Notes under the pieces: model-generated | What the model was told of the DNA's origin: nothing | What the model saw: the letters and a program-made list of their open reading frames with translations, nothing else | Database searches by the model: none | Made by a program: the position numbers and the translations under genes | DNA from: a bacterium | GTDB taxonomy: Bacteria; Sumerlaeota; Sumerlaeia; SLMS01; JAHLLQ01 | Length of the DNA: 64,000 nucleotides | Direction: 5' to 3' | Assembly: GCA_020444065.1 (NCBI GenBank) | Contig: JAHLLQ010000006.1 | Span: 62,001 to 126,000 of the forward strand | In this document: positions 46,183 to 55,985 of the stretch, in pieces | Layout: every line of letters begins with the position of its first letter | How positions within the stretch are numbered: the stretch's first letter is position 1

Positions 46183-47178
46183 TTACCTGGCAGCCAGTTC
46201 CCCCTGCTGCAGGCCCTTCAGGATCATATCGCCGTGGTGGCGCGAGTTTTCGATGAAGACGTGCCCGCTGACGTTGCCGGCGATGATCGTGCCGGCGATG
46301 AAGAGACCCGGGACGTTCGTCTCGAGCGTTTCGGGATCGTGCTTCGGAATGTTGGTGCCTTCCTCGATTTCGATGCCCATGTTGCGAAGAAAACCGGCTG
46401 GCGGATCGTAACCTGTCTGGCAGATCACGAAGTCGTTGGCGATGTCGAAGTCCTTGCCCGTGGACGTGTCGCGAAGCGTCACCGTTCCCCAATCGATCCG
46501 GGCGATCTCTGTTCCCATGTATCCCTTGATCTCGTCATTCTTGATTCGATTCTCGATATCTGGACGAATCCAATACTTGATCCCATAGCCGCGCAATTCC
46601 GGCCGGCGATACGACAGCGATACGTTGGCGCCGGAACGATACAACTCCAGTGCCGTCTCAATCGCCGAGTTGCGCCCGCCCACGATAAGTACCTCGGTAC
46701 CCGCGTATGGATGCGCCTCCTTGAAGTGATGCGTAACCTTTGGCAGATCCTCGCCCGGAACATTCAGTTGCCGGGGATTGTCAAATGCACCGCAGGCAAC
46801 CACGACCGAGCGAGCTTCGACAGTCTCGGGCTCCAGGCCTCGTTGCCGAATCTGAACCTCAAAGGAGCCACCCTGCGTCTTGCTGACCTTCTCAACGGTT
46901 GTGAAGGTCTGGAGCGGAATATCGCGATCTTGGGCGAAGCGAGTCAGGTAGTTCAAGTACTGCCGCCGGCTCGGCTTTTCCTCGGTAATGGTCAGCGGAA
47001 ACCCGTCAATCTCGAGAAGCTCGCGGGTGGAGAAGAACTGCATGAATGTCGGATACTCACTAATATGCTGTGCGATTGCGCCCTTGTCGGCCACAAGCAC
47101 GCTGAGTCCTTCCTTCTTGAGGGTATTGGCAACGGCCAGACCTGCGGGTCCGGCCCCGATAATCAATGTGTCCAGCAC
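46183..47178 (-). CDS. ypdA: YpdA-type FAD-dependent disulfide reductase
   Basis: A 331-residue flavoprotein. The FAD-binding motif is GAGPAGLAVAN (8-18), and the NAD(P)H-binding Rossmann motif is VGGRNSAIETALEL (about 167-180). LSYRRPELRGYGIKYWIRPD is characteristic of YpdA/Bdr, which recycles bacillithiol disulfide in Bacillota. There is no CxxC pair, as expected for this group. Whether the organism makes bacillithiol is not shown here. The gene diverges (203-bp gap) from a secreted thioredoxin-fold protein and ends at the shared terminator with ettA. Confidence 0.93.
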   Translation of the reverse strand: MLDTLIIGAGPAGLAVANTLKKEGLSVLVADKGAIAQHISEYPTFMQFFSTRELLEIDGFPLTITEEKPSRRQYLNYLTRFAQDRDIPLQTFTTVEKVSKTQGGSFEVQIRQRGLEPETVEARSVVVACGAFDNPRQLNVPGEDLPKVTHHFKEAHPYAGTEVLIVGGRNSAIETALELYRSGANVSLSYRRPELRGYGIKYWIRPDIENRIKNDEIKGYMGTEIARIDWGTVTLRDTSTGKDFDIANDFVICQTGYDPPAGFLRNMGIEIEEGTNIPKHDPETLETNVPGLFIAGTIIAGNVSGHVFIENSRHHGDMILKGLQQGELAAR

Positions 47179-47381: not shown

Positions 47382-49163
47382 ATGATTGAATCGACTGTCT
47401 TTACACGACATCTCCGAATGCTGCTGCTGGGGCTGCTTCTGGTGCCCGTGGCAGTGCGCGCCCAGACCTTCGTGATCGAGTCCGACTCCCGCGGCCAGAA
47501 CTCGGACCGCTTCCAGATTACCAGCGGCAGTTGGGTGCCCAGCGACGTCAAGAGCCGGGCGAGCTACCTCGGCGCGACAGCCGTGGCTTTGAAGATGGAA
47601 AGTCAGACTGGCGCGGTTCGTTTCAACCCACTTATCAAGTACGGTGGCGACTACCAGATCGAAATGACCTGGCCGACTCGATCCAACGTAACCGGCGCTA
47701 TTGCGAAGGTAACGGTCAATGGAACAGAGCTGGCCTCCGTGCCACTGACAATGGATTCGACCAATGCCGATAATTGGTTCTCCCTGGGCCTATTCCCCCT
47801 GACTGAGGGCGAAGGTACAATGATCGATCTCGTTGTGCCCAATGAGGCAAAGGCCGCGCACGACGATAGTCCGATGGCAGTCTACGCCGACGGCGTTCGC
47901 TTTCGCGCCGTCCAAGCCGGATCGCTCCCCACCGACGCCGTGACCGAGGAGAATCCCTTCGAACGCGCCACGTCCTCGGAACCCGCTGGTGGCGCTTCGC
48001 CATTCGATTCACCTCCGCCAAGCGATACCATGGGCTCGGCGGCTGTGAGCTCGGCGGATAGCCCCTTTGAAAATCCGCCGGCAGCCGACAATTCAGCTTC
48101 GACATTCTCAAGCCCCCCAACGAGTTCCAGTGACAGCCCGTTTGCCAATCCTCCGGCTGAAGACCCGTTCACCGCTTCCAGCAGCGCCCCGAGCGCCGAG
48201 GATCCCTTCGGCGGTTCCGGCGGACAGAGTCTCCCGTTTGGCGACGGCACGGGCGGAGCCCAGAGCGAGGGAATCTTCGGCTCGAACGTGGAGTTCCAGT
48301 CTTCGGGCGGTTCCGAAATCCTTGAATTTCAGGGTGGAGAGGGTGAACAGGAAGGCTTTGCTGCTCCTCCGACTTCCGGGACGGCCGCTGCATCCTCTTC
48401 GTCGGGTTCGTTCGCCGATCCGTTCGCCACAGAGGCAGGCGCCTCCGATCCGTTCGCAGGCTCGTCGACCTCTACGGCTTCCAGCAACGATCCGTTCACG
48501 GGCGGCACGCGAGCCTCTTGGGATCCATTCGGCAGCGGTGGTGATTCCGGGGCTTCCTCGTCCTCAGGATCGACCTCGATGAATGAATACGGCAGCGCCT
48601 CGCTCCCCGAATCTTCGACCGGCAGCCCGTTCGGCACGCCTCCGTCCGATTTCGGCGGCTCCGGCGGATTTGCAGCCTCGACACCGCCCTCCAACACCGC
48701 AGCTTCGAACATCGCTCGCAGCCAGGACCTGAGGAACTTCGCCTCGACGATGGAGAGCGAAGATGCGGAACCTGTCTTTGTCGATTACTCGGCCAGCCAG
48801 CCGAAGGCCGAGCCGACACCGGCGCCTGCCGGCGACATCGATTGGCTGTACGACCTGGACAAGGCCATGGAAGTGGCTCGCGAGCAGGGCAAACCCATCC
48901 TGGTCGTCTTCCTGGGCTCCAACAAGCAGAGCGAGACGTTCGAGAACGAAGTTCTTGCGGATGCGGACGCGGTGGACCTGATCAACAAGTTCATCCCCGT
49001 TCAGTTGGACTTCCAACTGGATAATGCCCTGGCCCGTAAATACAATGTTCCCAGCTCTCCGTACGCGGTTGTTCTCAATAAGTTTGGTTACACCAAGAGC
49101 CACGTTTCGATGATGACGGATACGCGGCGTTTCAATCGAGCCCTGACCCGACTGACGGACTGA
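47382..49163 (+). CDS. secreted golvesin-like / xPF-repeat / thioredoxin-fold protein
   Basis: The ATG at 47382 (MIESTVFTRHL) gives 593 residues; a start 21 bp earlier is possible. The signal peptide ends at VRAQT. Residues about 29-170 resemble the golvesin C-terminal module (YGGDYQIEMTWP, ending YADGVRFRAV). Residues about 185-440 are low-complexity Ser/Ala/Gly/Pro with 12 short xPF motifs (NPF, SPF, DPF, LPF). Residues about 485-593 are a thioredoxin-like fold (KPILVVFLGSNKQSETF, then PSSPYAVVLNKFGY with cis-Pro-like end), but the CxxC position has SNKQS, so it cannot be a disulfide oxidoreductase. Partner or chaperone role more likely. Function unknown. Confidence 0.83.
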   Translation: MIESTVFTRHLRMLLLGLLLVPVAVRAQTFVIESDSRGQNSDRFQITSGSWVPSDVKSRASYLGATAVALKMESQTGAVRFNPLIKYGGDYQIEMTWPTRSNVTGAIAKVTVNGTELASVPLTMDSTNADNWFSLGLFPLTEGEGTMIDLVVPNEAKAAHDDSPMAVYADGVRFRAVQAGSLPTDAVTEENPFERATSSEPAGGASPFDSPPPSDTMGSAAVSSADSPFENPPAADNSASTFSSPPTSSSDSPFANPPAEDPFTASSSAPSAEDPFGGSGGQSLPFGDGTGGAQSEGIFGSNVEFQSSGGSEILEFQGGEGEQEGFAAPPTSGTAAASSSSGSFADPFATEAGASDPFAGSSTSTASSNDPFTGGTRASWDPFGSGGDSGASSSSGSTSMNEYGSASLPESSTGSPFGTPPSDFGGSGGFAASTPPSNTAASNIARSQDLRNFASTMESEDAEPVFVDYSASQPKAEPTPAPAGDIDWLYDLDKAMEVAREQGKPILVVFLGSNKQSETFENEVLADADAVDLINKFIPVQLDFQLDNALARKYNVPSSPYAVVLNKFGYTKSHVSMMTDTRRFNRALTRLTD

Positions 49164-49384: not shown

Positions 49385-50128
49385 ATGTCCGGCCACAGTA
49401 AATGGCATTCCATTAAGCACAAGAAAGCCGCGGTCGACGCGAAGCGCGGCAAGCTGTTCACTCGCGTCATCAAGGAGCTTCAGATCGCCGCCCGCCTGGG
49501 CGGAAGCGATCCCGGCGGGAACCCGCGACTGCGCACTGCCATCCAGTCCGCAAAAGATGTCAACATGCCCAAGGACACAATGGAGCGCGCCATCAAGAAA
49601 GGCGCCGGTGAACTGGAAGGCTCGTCCTACGAAGAGATCCTCTACGAAGGTTATGCTCCGGGCGGCGTCGCGGTAATGGTCGAAGTCACTACCGACAATC
49701 GCAATCGCGCAGCTTCGGAGATTCGCCACACCTTCACGAAATACGGTGGGAACCTTGGGAACTCGGGCTGTGTCAGCTATCTGTTCGAGCGCAAGGGCGT
49801 TATCGAAGCGGAATGCGAAGACGACGACAAGGTGATGGAGGCGGCCCTCGAAGCCGGGGCGGAAGACATCGAGAGCGAAGAGGGGTTCCACGAGATCACG
49901 ACGAATCCGGACGACGTCCAGGATGTTCGTGAGGGTATGGAAGCGGCCGGCATCAAGGTCACGAGCTCCGGCATTCGCCAGATCCCGACGAACACGGTTA
50001 CCCTTGAACTGAAGGACGCGCAGAGCTGCCTGAAGCTCATCGGCGCCCTGGAAGACAACGATGACGTCGATGAGGTCTACGCCAACCACGACATTCCGGA
50101 CGAAATTTCAGAGCAGTTGGAAGACTGA
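49385..50128 (+). CDS. yebC: YebC/PmpR family regulator / translation factor
   Basis: A 247-residue protein beginning MSGHSKWHSIKHKKAAVDAK, the invariant start of the family. Further markers are GGNPRLRTAIQSAKDVNMPKD (helical domain 1), YEGYAPGGVAVMVEVTTDNRNRA (domain 2) and NSGCVSYLFERKG. Family members were described as DNA-binding regulators and more recently as factors that relieve ribosome stalling at proline-rich stretches; which applies here is open, though the window does encode many Pro-rich proteins. SD not strong (GGAGTCATTCAG). Single-gene unit ending at a strong terminator. Confidence 0.97.
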   Translation: MSGHSKWHSIKHKKAAVDAKRGKLFTRVIKELQIAARLGGSDPGGNPRLRTAIQSAKDVNMPKDTMERAIKKGAGELEGSSYEEILYEGYAPGGVAVMVEVTTDNRNRAASEIRHTFTKYGGNLGNSGCVSYLFERKGVIEAECEDDDKVMEAALEAGAEDIESEEGFHEITTNPDDVQDVREGMEAAGIKVTSSGIRQIPTNTVTLELKDAQSCLKLIGALEDNDDVDEVYANHDIPDEISEQLED

Positions 50129-52387: not shown

Positions 52388-53200
52388 ATGAGGACCATGG
52401 CGAAGATCCCCAAACAGCGTGTCGATGAACTGCTCGTTGAACAGGGCCTCGCCGGCGATCTGGCGGAGGCTGCCGGTCTCGTTCGCGCCGGTCGTGTGCA
52501 TGGGGCGGATCGGCGCTACGAGAAGCCTGGAGAGTCGGTGCGTACAAATGTCAAACTTTCAGTCAAAGGGCGTGAGCATCCCTATGTGGGCCGCGGAGGA
52601 CTGAAGCTGGCGGGAGCACTCGACCGATTTGGCATCGAACCGACTGAACGCGCCTGCCTGGACCTGGGAGCCAGCACGGGAGGATTCACCGATTGCCTGC
52701 TGCAGCGCGGCGCACGGGGGGTGCTCGCCATCGATGTCGGGCGCGGGCAGTTGCACGAACGACTTATTCGAGATCCACGCGTCACCAGCCGAGAGCAGAC
52801 GCACCTGAAAGACCTGAAGGCTGCCGACATGCCTCCGGAACTGTCGCTGGTCGTGGCAGATCTGTCGTTCATCTCGCTGCGAGCTTGCATTCCGATGATC
52901 TCAGCGCTCCTACCGGAAGGCTGCGAAGCCATTCTCCTGGTCAAACCCCAGTTCGAACTGCCGCCGGGTGATGTCCCCGAGGGCGGTGTCGTGACCGATG
53001 AGGCGCCTCGACGGAAGGCCGTCGAGGAGGTACTGGGGGCCGCGCTCGAACAGAGATTTGTGCTTCTGGGGGCTGCCGCGTCGCCAGTGGCCGGCGCGGA
53101 CGGAAATCGCGAGTTCTTCGTCTACTTGAAGAAGCCAAGGGGCGGCGAAAGTGGCCCGGGCTTCGCTGTTGACGATATCCTGGCGGACGCTTTCAACTGA
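52388..53200 (+). CDS. tlyA: TlyA-family RNA 2'-O-methyltransferase
   Basis: About 270 residues; an S4 RNA-binding domain (QRVDELLVEQGLAG and VRAGRVHGADR, about 10-70) is followed by an FtsJ-like SAM methyltransferase: CLDLGASTGGFTDCLLQRGA (SAM site), AIDVGRGQLHERL, ADLSFISLRACIPM and LLVKPQFEL, with Lys and Glu residues of the K-D-K-E tetrad visible (VGRGGLKL, PQFE). In mycobacteria TlyA methylates 16S and 23S rRNA (2'-O) and gives capreomycin sensitivity. Start is uncertain between 52388 and 52397, because GAGGA is only 2 nt before the second ATG. First gene of a plus-strand series with the TPR lipoprotein. Confidence 0.93.
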   Translation: MRTMAKIPKQRVDELLVEQGLAGDLAEAAGLVRAGRVHGADRRYEKPGESVRTNVKLSVKGREHPYVGRGGLKLAGALDRFGIEPTERACLDLGASTGGFTDCLLQRGARGVLAIDVGRGQLHERLIRDPRVTSREQTHLKDLKAADMPPELSLVVADLSFISLRACIPMISALLPEGCEAILLVKPQFELPPGDVPEGGVVTDEAPRRKAVEEVLGAALEQRFVLLGAAASPVAGADGNREFFVYLKKPRGGESGPGFAVDDILADAFN

Positions 53201-53246
53201 ACGGGCGGCATCGTCGCCAGTAAAAATACGCAACGATTGGATGGAA

Positions 53247-55985
53247 ATGAGACTTCTCAGCGGGAAACTCGGACCGAAACTCACCGTCGCGGGAACATCA
53301 TTGGTACTTGGAATCTTCTGGGCGGGGTGCGCCAGCGCGCCACACGTGCCGGAACCAATGCAGGATGTGACCACGGATAGCATGGTGATCGAAGCACCGA
53401 CGATGGATGAGCCGGTGGTCGAAATGGCCCAGGTCGAGGAGCCCGCCGAACAACAGAAGCCTCAGAAGCCGGAGGTCAGCGCCGAACCGACCCCGATCCC
53501 AGCACCCACGCCGATCCCGACGCCGGTCATCACCGACACTCCCCCGCCAGAGCACTACCTGTTCCCGGCGCCGCTCGGCCCGATGATCGTGCCGCACACG
53601 GTGGTGGAAATGGACGATGCGGCGGAAGCGCCGCCAATCTTCGATGCCCTCGGTGAGAAGGCCAAAGAAGCGTATGTCCAGGGCGCGTTGAAGAACCAGT
53701 CCGGCTATCCGACGCAGGCGTTCGAGTATTTCATGGAGGCCGTGGAGCAGGATCCGGAGAATCTGTGGCTGAAGAATCGCGCCGCAGAAGCCGCGCTCTA
53801 TCAGCACGATCTTCCGCGGGCGCAGAAACTGTCCGAGGAAGTCCTCGAAGCCGATCCGGATAATTACACGGCGATGCTGCTACTGGCGAAGCTGAGCACC
53901 TATCGCGAGAAGTACGACGAGGCCAAGGAGTGGTATCATAAGGTCCTCGACGTGAAGGACAAGAATATCGAGGCGCTGCAGAGCCTGGCCCGGATTGCGT
54001 ATAGCGAAGACCAGGATCTGGAGAAAGTCAAAGAGTACGCCGGGCGAATCCTGAAAGTCGACGGACGCAATTACGAGGCGATGTTGCTGCACGCCGAGGC
54101 CAGTGCACTGACTGGAGATATTCAATACGCAGCCGGCCTTTATTCGCAGTTGGTGAAGTACAACCCCGCGATCATCTCGCGCCTGATGGGAATGGCGCAA
54201 CGTCTTGTGCAGATGGATCGTGTCGACGATGCGACGGAATTGCTGCGCGAAGGTGTTATCATGCAGCCGGAATCGGTGGCTGTACGTCGCCAGTGGGAAA
54301 CGATCCTGATGAAGGAAGGCGGCGACGAGGCGGTCATTGAAGGCTACGAGGCGCTTCTCGCGCCGAATCCGCTGGAGATCGACCTGCACGAGCTGTTCGC
54401 GGATTACCTGGCTCGGGCGGGCGATGTCGATCGCCTGGAAGAAGAACGCGAGAAGATGCTGGAGATCAATCCGCGCCATGTTCCAAGCATCCTGTCTCTG
54501 GCGCGAATCGCGATGATTCGGGGCGACCAGGAGCATGCGAATGAGCTGTTTGAGCGCGCCCTTGAGGCGGGACCTGAAGACGCCTCCACGTATCGCGAGA
54601 TCGCGCTCGTCTACATGGATCAGGGTAAACTGGACCGCGCTGAAGACTTGCTGCGCACGGCGATGACGATCGATCCGGAAGATCCGGACACGCTGCTGGC
54701 AATGGCGGCGCTGAGTGAACGTTTCGATGATCCGAAGCAAACGGAGCGTTTGCTGAAGCGCGCTCTCGATCTCGCGCCGGCCAACGATCACATGCTGAAG
54801 CTGCTGGGCGATTTCTACCGCCGGCACAACCGCACGGAAGAGGCTTCGCAACTCTACGAGCAATTGCTCGCCGTCGATCCCGAGAACACTGAGAACCAGG
54901 TAACTCTGGCGGTCCTCTACTTCATCCTGGAGAACGAGACGGCGCTGGACCGCGTGCAGAAAGCTGCGCCGGCCGTCGTTGCTGACAAGTTCGGTTTCTT
55001 CTTCGATTACGGCCGTATGGCGATGCAGTACGGCGAGTGGGATCGCGGTCGCTGGGCATTCGAAAAGGCCCTGCAGATCAGCCCCAAGAATATCAATGTC
55101 CGTCGCGATCTGGCGACAGCGTATCTGCATCTGAACGAGAACGAAATCGCCGAGCGTACGTTGCTCGAAGCGGAGGGCATGTACACCGAGGGCGAATCCC
55201 ACACGACGTGGCTACTCTCGATGGTGGGCCTGTACCAGGATTTGAGACAGTACGAGAAGGCACTCGAGTACATCCAGAAGTTGCTGGAAGAAAACCCGGA
55301 TGAGCCCGTGTATCGCGAGCAGGAGATGATTTTCCTGGCAACGCTCGGTCGCACGGATGAAGTCACGGAGAAGCTGAACAGCTACATTCGCGACTACAGT
55401 ATCGACGAGCCGATGCAGACGAAACTGACTCGCGCGAGCGTTTATCAGGCGCTTGGGGAAACCGACCGTGCGATCGGCGTGTTGCGGCCGCTCGTCTCGG
55501 ACAATCCGAATGACATCGAATTGCTGTACCGACTCGCCAATCTGTACGGCGAGCAAGAGGAGGTGAACCTGGCCGAGCATTACTACGACGCCGTCATCGA
55601 AGAATCGGAAGGCAATCCCGAGTTGGTCGGTATGCTGCTCAATGCGTGCAACAACCTGGCCTACCTGTACGCCACCACCGGAACGGATCTTGATCGTGCA
55701 GAGGAATTGGTCGGGCGGGCGCTGGAACTGGCTCCGCGTGCAGGGTACATTCTGGACACGATGGGCTGGGTAAAATTCCAGCAGAAGCAGTACGCGGAAG
55801 CGGAGGACTGGCTGAAGCGCGCCGAGAAGTTGAGCCTCGACGATGCAGAGTTGCTCGAGCACCTTGGCGATCTTTACGAGGCGACAAACCGCCCGGAACT
55901 GGCGCGTCGATATTATGAGAAGGCCGCGAAGATCGATCCGAAGAGCGCCGCGGCCGAGAAGTTGAAGGAACTGGGGACGGAGTGA
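53247..55985 (+). CDS. large TPR-repeat lipoprotein
   Basis: The start at 53247 (MRLLSGKLGPKL, or the ATG 6 bp earlier) gives 912 residues. Lipobox FWAGC puts the lipidated Cys at residue 28. A Pro-rich linker (EPTPIPAPTPIPTPVITDTPPP, about 80-105) leads to some 17-18 TPR units from about 140 to the end (for example GKLDRAEDLLRTAMTIDPEDPDTLLAMAAL). This is the profile of periplasmic/outer-membrane scaffold proteins, with the first repeats probably less regular. Starts 46 bp after tlyA and ends 43 bp before the VWA gene, so the three may be one operon. Partner unknown. Confidence 0.85.
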   Translation: MRLLSGKLGPKLTVAGTSLVLGIFWAGCASAPHVPEPMQDVTTDSMVIEAPTMDEPVVEMAQVEEPAEQQKPQKPEVSAEPTPIPAPTPIPTPVITDTPPPEHYLFPAPLGPMIVPHTVVEMDDAAEAPPIFDALGEKAKEAYVQGALKNQSGYPTQAFEYFMEAVEQDPENLWLKNRAAEAALYQHDLPRAQKLSEEVLEADPDNYTAMLLLAKLSTYREKYDEAKEWYHKVLDVKDKNIEALQSLARIAYSEDQDLEKVKEYAGRILKVDGRNYEAMLLHAEASALTGDIQYAAGLYSQLVKYNPAIISRLMGMAQRLVQMDRVDDATELLREGVIMQPESVAVRRQWETILMKEGGDEAVIEGYEALLAPNPLEIDLHELFADYLARAGDVDRLEEEREKMLEINPRHVPSILSLARIAMIRGDQEHANELFERALEAGPEDASTYREIALVYMDQGKLDRAEDLLRTAMTIDPEDPDTLLAMAALSERFDDPKQTERLLKRALDLAPANDHMLKLLGDFYRRHNRTEEASQLYEQLLAVDPENTENQVTLAVLYFILENETALDRVQKAAPAVVADKFGFFFDYGRMAMQYGEWDRGRWAFEKALQISPKNINVRRDLATAYLHLNENEIAERTLLEAEGMYTEGESHTTWLLSMVGLYQDLRQYEKALEYIQKLLEENPDEPVYREQEMIFLATLGRTDEVTEKLNSYIRDYSIDEPMQTKLTRASVYQALGETDRAIGVLRPLVSDNPNDIELLYRLANLYGEQEEVNLAEHYYDAVIEESEGNPELVGMLLNACNNLAYLYATTGTDLDRAEELVGRALELAPRAGYILDTMGWVKFQQKQYAEAEDWLKRAEKLSLDDAELLEHLGDLYEATNRPELARRYYEKAAKIDPKSAAAEKLKELGTE

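Follow-up and report, generated by a model that had tools for sequence, protein, structure and literature searches.

The linkers of the endocytic proteins Eps15, epsin, and FCHO carry many short P-F motifs (DPF and NPF) on a disordered chain, and such motifs are common to unrelated proteins. Regularly spaced hydrophobic stickers and proline-rich spacers also characterize FG nucleoporins and elastin-like polymers, the sticker-and-spacer proteins of condensates. A bacterial protein with a comparable linker is encoded in the window, the 64,000-nucleotide stretch of DNA analysed here, from an uncultured Sumerlaeota bacterium. The protein, a member of what is termed family A below, places the linker between a golvesin-like and a thioredoxin-like domain. 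The combination of golvesin and thioredoxin was not found in a literature search that reached few subscription journals, so that its absence there is weakly supported; the accessible part of the golvesin literature deals mostly with Dictyostelium.

The family A protein (593 residues; open frame at 47382–49163, plus strand) begins with a signal peptide recognized by eye (residues 1–27, 47382–47462), which would be cut after VRA, contains a helix at residues 6–18 in the AlphaFold2 model, and suggests that the protein is secreted. The golvesin or xanthan-lyase CBM-like domain (residues 30–174, 47469–47903), the linker (residues 181–483, 47922–48830), and the thioredoxin-like domain (residues 484–593, 48831–49160) follow on the same strand. 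The model shows a folded β domain, a disordered middle, and a folded C-terminal domain, with pLDDT values below 50 almost throughout residues 181–483. Pfam assigns residues 40–174 to Golvesin_C (PF25275; E = 3.9e-10, 40.3 bits against a gathering cut-off of 31.6) and residues 487–564 to Thioredoxin_7 (PF13899; E = 5.4e-8, above the curated cut-off). With Foldseek, the first domain best matches the xanthan lyase 6f2p (E = 4.5e-8) and then CBM35, such that the golvesin-like domain named in a sequence-only reading of this DNA is borne out by both profile and fold. On the basis of these fold matches, the domain probably holds a glycan. Golvesin-domain matches number two in the window's genome and 13–27 in its family relatives.

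Other searches returned little. A PDB sequence search with the family A protein gave nothing meaningful, a search of its own genome gave, besides itself, weak thioredoxin matches only, and the genome collection queried with this single protein yielded no relative; tRNA scans had no match. An alignment of five closer relatives matched four named records, all of them metagenome-assembled genomes of Candidatus Sumerlaeota. An identity as a VPGUxxT or Trx7-PDZ (seleno)protein of NCBIfam was rejected, as the scores of 21–22 bits fall below curated cut-offs of 275–350. Family A matches were recovered in 26 of 61 genomes, and 23 members were treated as the family.

The C-terminal domain, modelled alone, reaches a mean pLDDT of 83.8 and matches thioredoxin folds of the PDB (DsbD gamma, DsbH, AGR2, and 3f9u), harboring N-K-Q-S at the CxxC site. 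The first cysteine is absent in all 23 members, the second is present in three, and the pair in none. The thioredoxin layout lacking CxxC, as originally described, thus stands, and the profile of residues supports a non-redox protein rather than an ordinary oxidoreductase, as had been proposed. In the sequence alignment, the putative cis-proline position is occupied by proline in 15 of the 23 members and by glycine in eight, all of f6 (clade labels of this kind denote family groups of genomes and are not drawn from a species tree). P560, Y561, V563, G569, T571, and H574 are among the residues invariant in ten relatives of the order to which the host belongs, suggesting that the domain is maintained for a role other than redox chemistry.

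The linker harbors 12 xPF motifs at residues 191–415 (six DPF, four SPF, one NPF, and one LPF). The count of twelve given earlier for about 250 residues is confirmed, with a span closer to 225. Shuffling of the 295-residue stretch yields 2.45 xPF on average and nine at most, and none of 20,000 shuffles reached 12. Among the ten orthologous loci of the order, eight carry 3–20 P-aromatic motifs, mostly DPF and mostly spaced by 9–25 residues. The two others, in G005 and G006, have short linkers and lack both the motifs and the golvesin domain (absent in four of the ten) while retaining the thioredoxin-like domain; the stickers are therefore dispensable for whatever that domain does. Six f6 members whose linkers are long lack PF and carry 8–21 LP each, and the f13 members have SPF. 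The expectation that homologues would share the motifs thus holds for their presence in eight of ten order loci and fails for their number and spacing, which range from 0 to 20 copies; taken strictly, the converse expectation of homologues devoid of xPF is borne out in part, by two order loci and the six f6 relatives. The xPF motif is therefore a trait of the clade and not a fixed array.

The motif is not private to family A. The class sample comprises 39 genomes, 12 of the order and 27 others. Across the order's 12 genomes, a paired-DPF DNA pattern occurs at 58 places, compared with five for the reversed pattern; a second DPF-pair pattern occurs at 88 places versus none reversed in the order, and at 36 versus two in the 27 other genomes. 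These places fall within few proteins, all secreted-looking by eye. On reading the places listed, 21 clusters of at least two hits were assigned to family A (four), B (eight), C (three), D (four, one being a contig-end piece placed by inference), E (one), and another protein (one). Family D is a helical-repeat-like protein with the motif in its C-terminal tail, and family E is a GHL10 glycosyl hydrolase-like protein; the motif is located in the middle of A and at the N-terminus of B and C. Profile searches with B, C, and D found no Pfam, NCBIfam, or PDB relative of note. These three families occur in 28, 38, and 29 of the 39 class genomes, respectively, and the window's own genome carries A, B, C, and D.

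In the order, P-aromatic motifs per 100 residues amount to 4.0 in A, 6.7 in B, 3.5 in C, and 4.2 in D, compared with 0.5 in 44 control segments, from which only one of two DPF carriers, the GHL10 protein of G011, had been dropped. The flanks are also alike. Aspartate precedes the proline in 53 of 79 motifs of A, 75 of 101 of B, 26 of 40 of C, and 26 of 38 of D, and alanine or glycine follows PF in all four families. Besides A, three or more unrelated families of secreted proteins (B, C, and D) carry [D/N/S]PF[A/G] repeats in the same genomes. The sole protein with such motifs met outside A–E is an M56/BlaR1-like protein of G004 (L166, 3802–6813; named by eye), which has seven xPF. Gene neighbourhoods of family B revealed no clear system. 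In several families of genomes (L299, 7598–8713; L302, 6463–12519; L305; L312; L313; and L315), family C is grouped with a small protein family, cl0, and with a large protein resembling a lipoprotein, cl4, and this cluster is conserved; the cl4 member in L173 has a DUF4398.

At the DNA level, the repeats are heterogeneous. DPF is encoded by 13 different nonamers in 50 copies of A and by 14 in 75 copies of B, and the longest DNA common to the families in the order is 21 nucleotides within a genome and 23 between genomes. Varied codons and common flanks, with no long shared DNA, argue that, in the order, selection acts on the motif at the protein level. Gene conversion there is unlikely and is not needed, given the scrambled codons. 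The C and D repeats of f11 have DNA strings in common and may have arisen through recombination or copying.

Outside the order, the motif changes, and it changes in several families together. In f13, A and D both use SPF. In f6, LPxLP replaces the motif in A, B, and D and, more weakly, in C (5.6, 4.0, 2.2, and 1.3 LP per 100 residues for A, B, D, and C, respectively, compared with 0.4 in 15 controls), with D mixing LP and PGM. In f11, C and D use QPGM; QPGM pairs occur in four of the 39 genomes, and all 24 places are at C or D loci. PGVPG-like runs are found in C of f3 and f8. The correspondence is incomplete: f3, f8, f10, and f12 have little or no clade motif, and the clade's motifs are scarce or absent in the B proteins of f13 and f11, which do not follow their clades.

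The concordance of A–D by clade, calculated from composition-corrected dipeptide profiles, is 0.208, compared with 0.058 (sd 0.020) after permutation of the clade labels, and none of 20,000 permutations reached the observed value. Because B, C, and D were discovered through the DPF pattern, the order itself is a selected set, and the tests that exclude it are the fair ones; here, two of 20,000 permutations reached the observed value without the order and 14 of 20,000 when f11 was removed as well. The result also holds for every combination of three families (at most three of 20,000). Single pairs are weaker, with p values of 0.0005 (C–D), 0.017, 0.042, 0.050, 0.067, and 0.167, the last belonging to A–B, for which it is the minimum attainable with three clades. 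The A set comprised 20 of the 23 members, omitting L026, which belongs to a different class, and the second copies L032 and L033. The duplicate locus L208 was omitted from the B set, in which the proteins of G002 and G004 are cut by contig ends, and the C set, for which the number of loci was capped, drew on 30 of the 38 genomes with a match, segments shorter than 25 residues being dropped. A simple rule based on hydrophobicity delimited the segments of B and C. As a held-out check, the A protein of G034 (f13) was kept outside the concordance set; it has 12 P-aromatic motifs, eight of which are SPF, as in the D protein of the same genome. Concerted change is not a property of the other low-complexity segments tested. 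From 68 proline-rich control segments, 66 remained after removal of two DPF carriers (the GHL10 protein of G011 and the M56-like protein of G004), and their concordance is −0.013 versus 0.007 when permuted, with 18,431 of 20,000 permutations reaching the observed value; this control is weakened because some segments resemble antisense frames despite a codon filter, and it includes few segments from beyond the order and f6.

An account in which the linkers are passive spacers that merely separate domains, in a genome-wide low-complexity style produced by mutation bias, would fit their composition, the free variation in motif number and spacing (0–20 copies), and the two motif-free orthologues. 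It is weakened by the 66 control segments, drawn from the same clades yet without concordance with A–D, although few such controls come from elsewhere than the order and f6; by the near absence of motifs from controls in the order (0.5 versus 3.5–6.7 per 100 residues); and by the 13 nonamers behind 50 DPF copies in A, with no long shared DNA. We consider it unlikely. The gene neighbourhood points to another role, that of a thiol-stress partner of YpdA, coregulated with it and active in extracytoplasmic thiol homeostasis, to which the linker would be incidental. A divergent ypdA (46183–47178, minus strand; TIGR04018, 369.9 bits against a cut-off of 339.9), encoding a putative bacillithiol disulfide reductase, flanks the family A gene in all ten gene-bearing genomes of the order, and BshC is present in the window's genome and in 32 of the 39 class genomes. 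However, YpdA is cytosolic, the redox cysteine pair is found in no family A member, and eight ypdA loci of other families have neither a golvesin nor a thioredoxin-like domain nearby. Moreover, two sister genomes, G002 and G004, have ypdA and yebC as immediate, facing neighbours, the family A gene being cleanly missing from between them. The lost cysteines and this natural absence rank a redox role low, and the partnership appears improbable. Downstream, yebC (49385–50128, plus strand) adjoins the family A gene in f1 genomes only; in f6, the family A gene comes after genes that resemble LolCE-LolD. The YpdA of L125 (G019), from the distant f10, is 67% identical to that of the window, compared with 52–59% for the sister family, and a transfer of ypdA involving G019 is possible. 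A large TPR protein at 53151–55982 resembles PrsT of XrtA/PEP-CTERM systems at 305.2 bits, just below the cut-off of 312.2, and the placement of its gene after yebC is conserved in L065 and L066.

Alternatively, the motif could be an export or sorting tag read by an outer-membrane exit machine, for example one similar to type II secretion, with A–D as its cargo. Judged by eye, A–D all seem to be secreted; in addition, T2SSE or T2SSF genes occur close to D in L307 and L314, and C of L315 has a T2SSK-like HHH gene in its vicinity. The differing position of the motif among the families, the presence of up to 20 copies, more than a tag needs, and the motif-free orthologues make this explanation quite unlikely. 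The sequence-only reading had drawn an analogy to eukaryotic endocytic ligands, and the analogy holds for multivalency, as multiple NPF/DPF motifs do occur in a disordered chain, and extends no further: the signal peptide would place the family A protein outside the cytoplasm, where endocytic adaptors act. A mimic of such NPF/DPF ligands aimed at host cells is favored by motif likeness only and is hardly credible, given that LPxLP or QPGM replaces the motif in sister clades, that the families sharing it are present in 28–38 of the 39 class genomes, and that evidence for a eukaryotic host was not found in this analysis.

We therefore favor, with about as much belief as doubt, a multivalent sticker linker by which envelope proteins would be joined, either via a shared partner or directly to one another. 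Family A would be a secreted, non-redox envelope protein whose thioredoxin-like domain may have been turned into a binding domain and whose disordered linker would act as a string of short hydrophobic stickers of the form [D/N/S]-P-F-[A/G], mostly 9–20 residues apart. The same sticker on B, C, and D of the same genomes, swapped for SPF, LPxLP, or QPGM in at least two families of related clades, would gather the four proteins within the envelope or immediately outside it. That unrelated secreted proteins keep and change one motif together is most simply accounted for if the proteins meet. The stickers may all be ligands of a single receptor with drifting specificity, or they may bind each other, which would oblige every partner to retain the same type. 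A more speculative extension, which we advance tentatively, is a lineage-specific sticker code in Sumerlaeia, in which like-with-like contacts would build a condensate or matrix, in the envelope or outside the cell, with membership set by the motif; such a code would amount to self-recognition written in the disordered segments of bacterial secreted proteins. Were the sticker linker itself correct, disordered segments of unrelated proteins could be grouped into one assembly by a co-drifting motif, with no need for the partner, and new envelope machines could be found from sequence alone. It would also offer a handle on three widespread, unnamed families of Sumerlaeia (B, C, and D) and a bacterial, extracytoplasmic counterpart of eukaryotic motif hubs.

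Each part of family A has a described counterpart from which it departs. Its N-terminal domain shares profile and fold with Golvesin_C, xanthan lyase, and CBM35-like domains, and family A differs in that this domain is fused, by way of the sticker linker, to a thioredoxin-like one. The C-terminal domain has the fold and sequence profile of Thioredoxin_7 proteins such as DsbD gamma, DsbH, and AGR2 but is devoid of their CxxC. As in Eps15, epsin, and FCHO, many short P-F motifs lie on a chain that is predicted to be disordered in A, and unrelated proteins share them; in contrast to the former, A–D are bacterial proteins, apparently secreted, in which the motif is replaced in concert clade by clade. 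The linker of A resembles FG nucleoporins and elastin-like polymers in its spacing of hydrophobic stickers by proline-rich segments, whereas its sticker is common to unrelated families and switches by clade.
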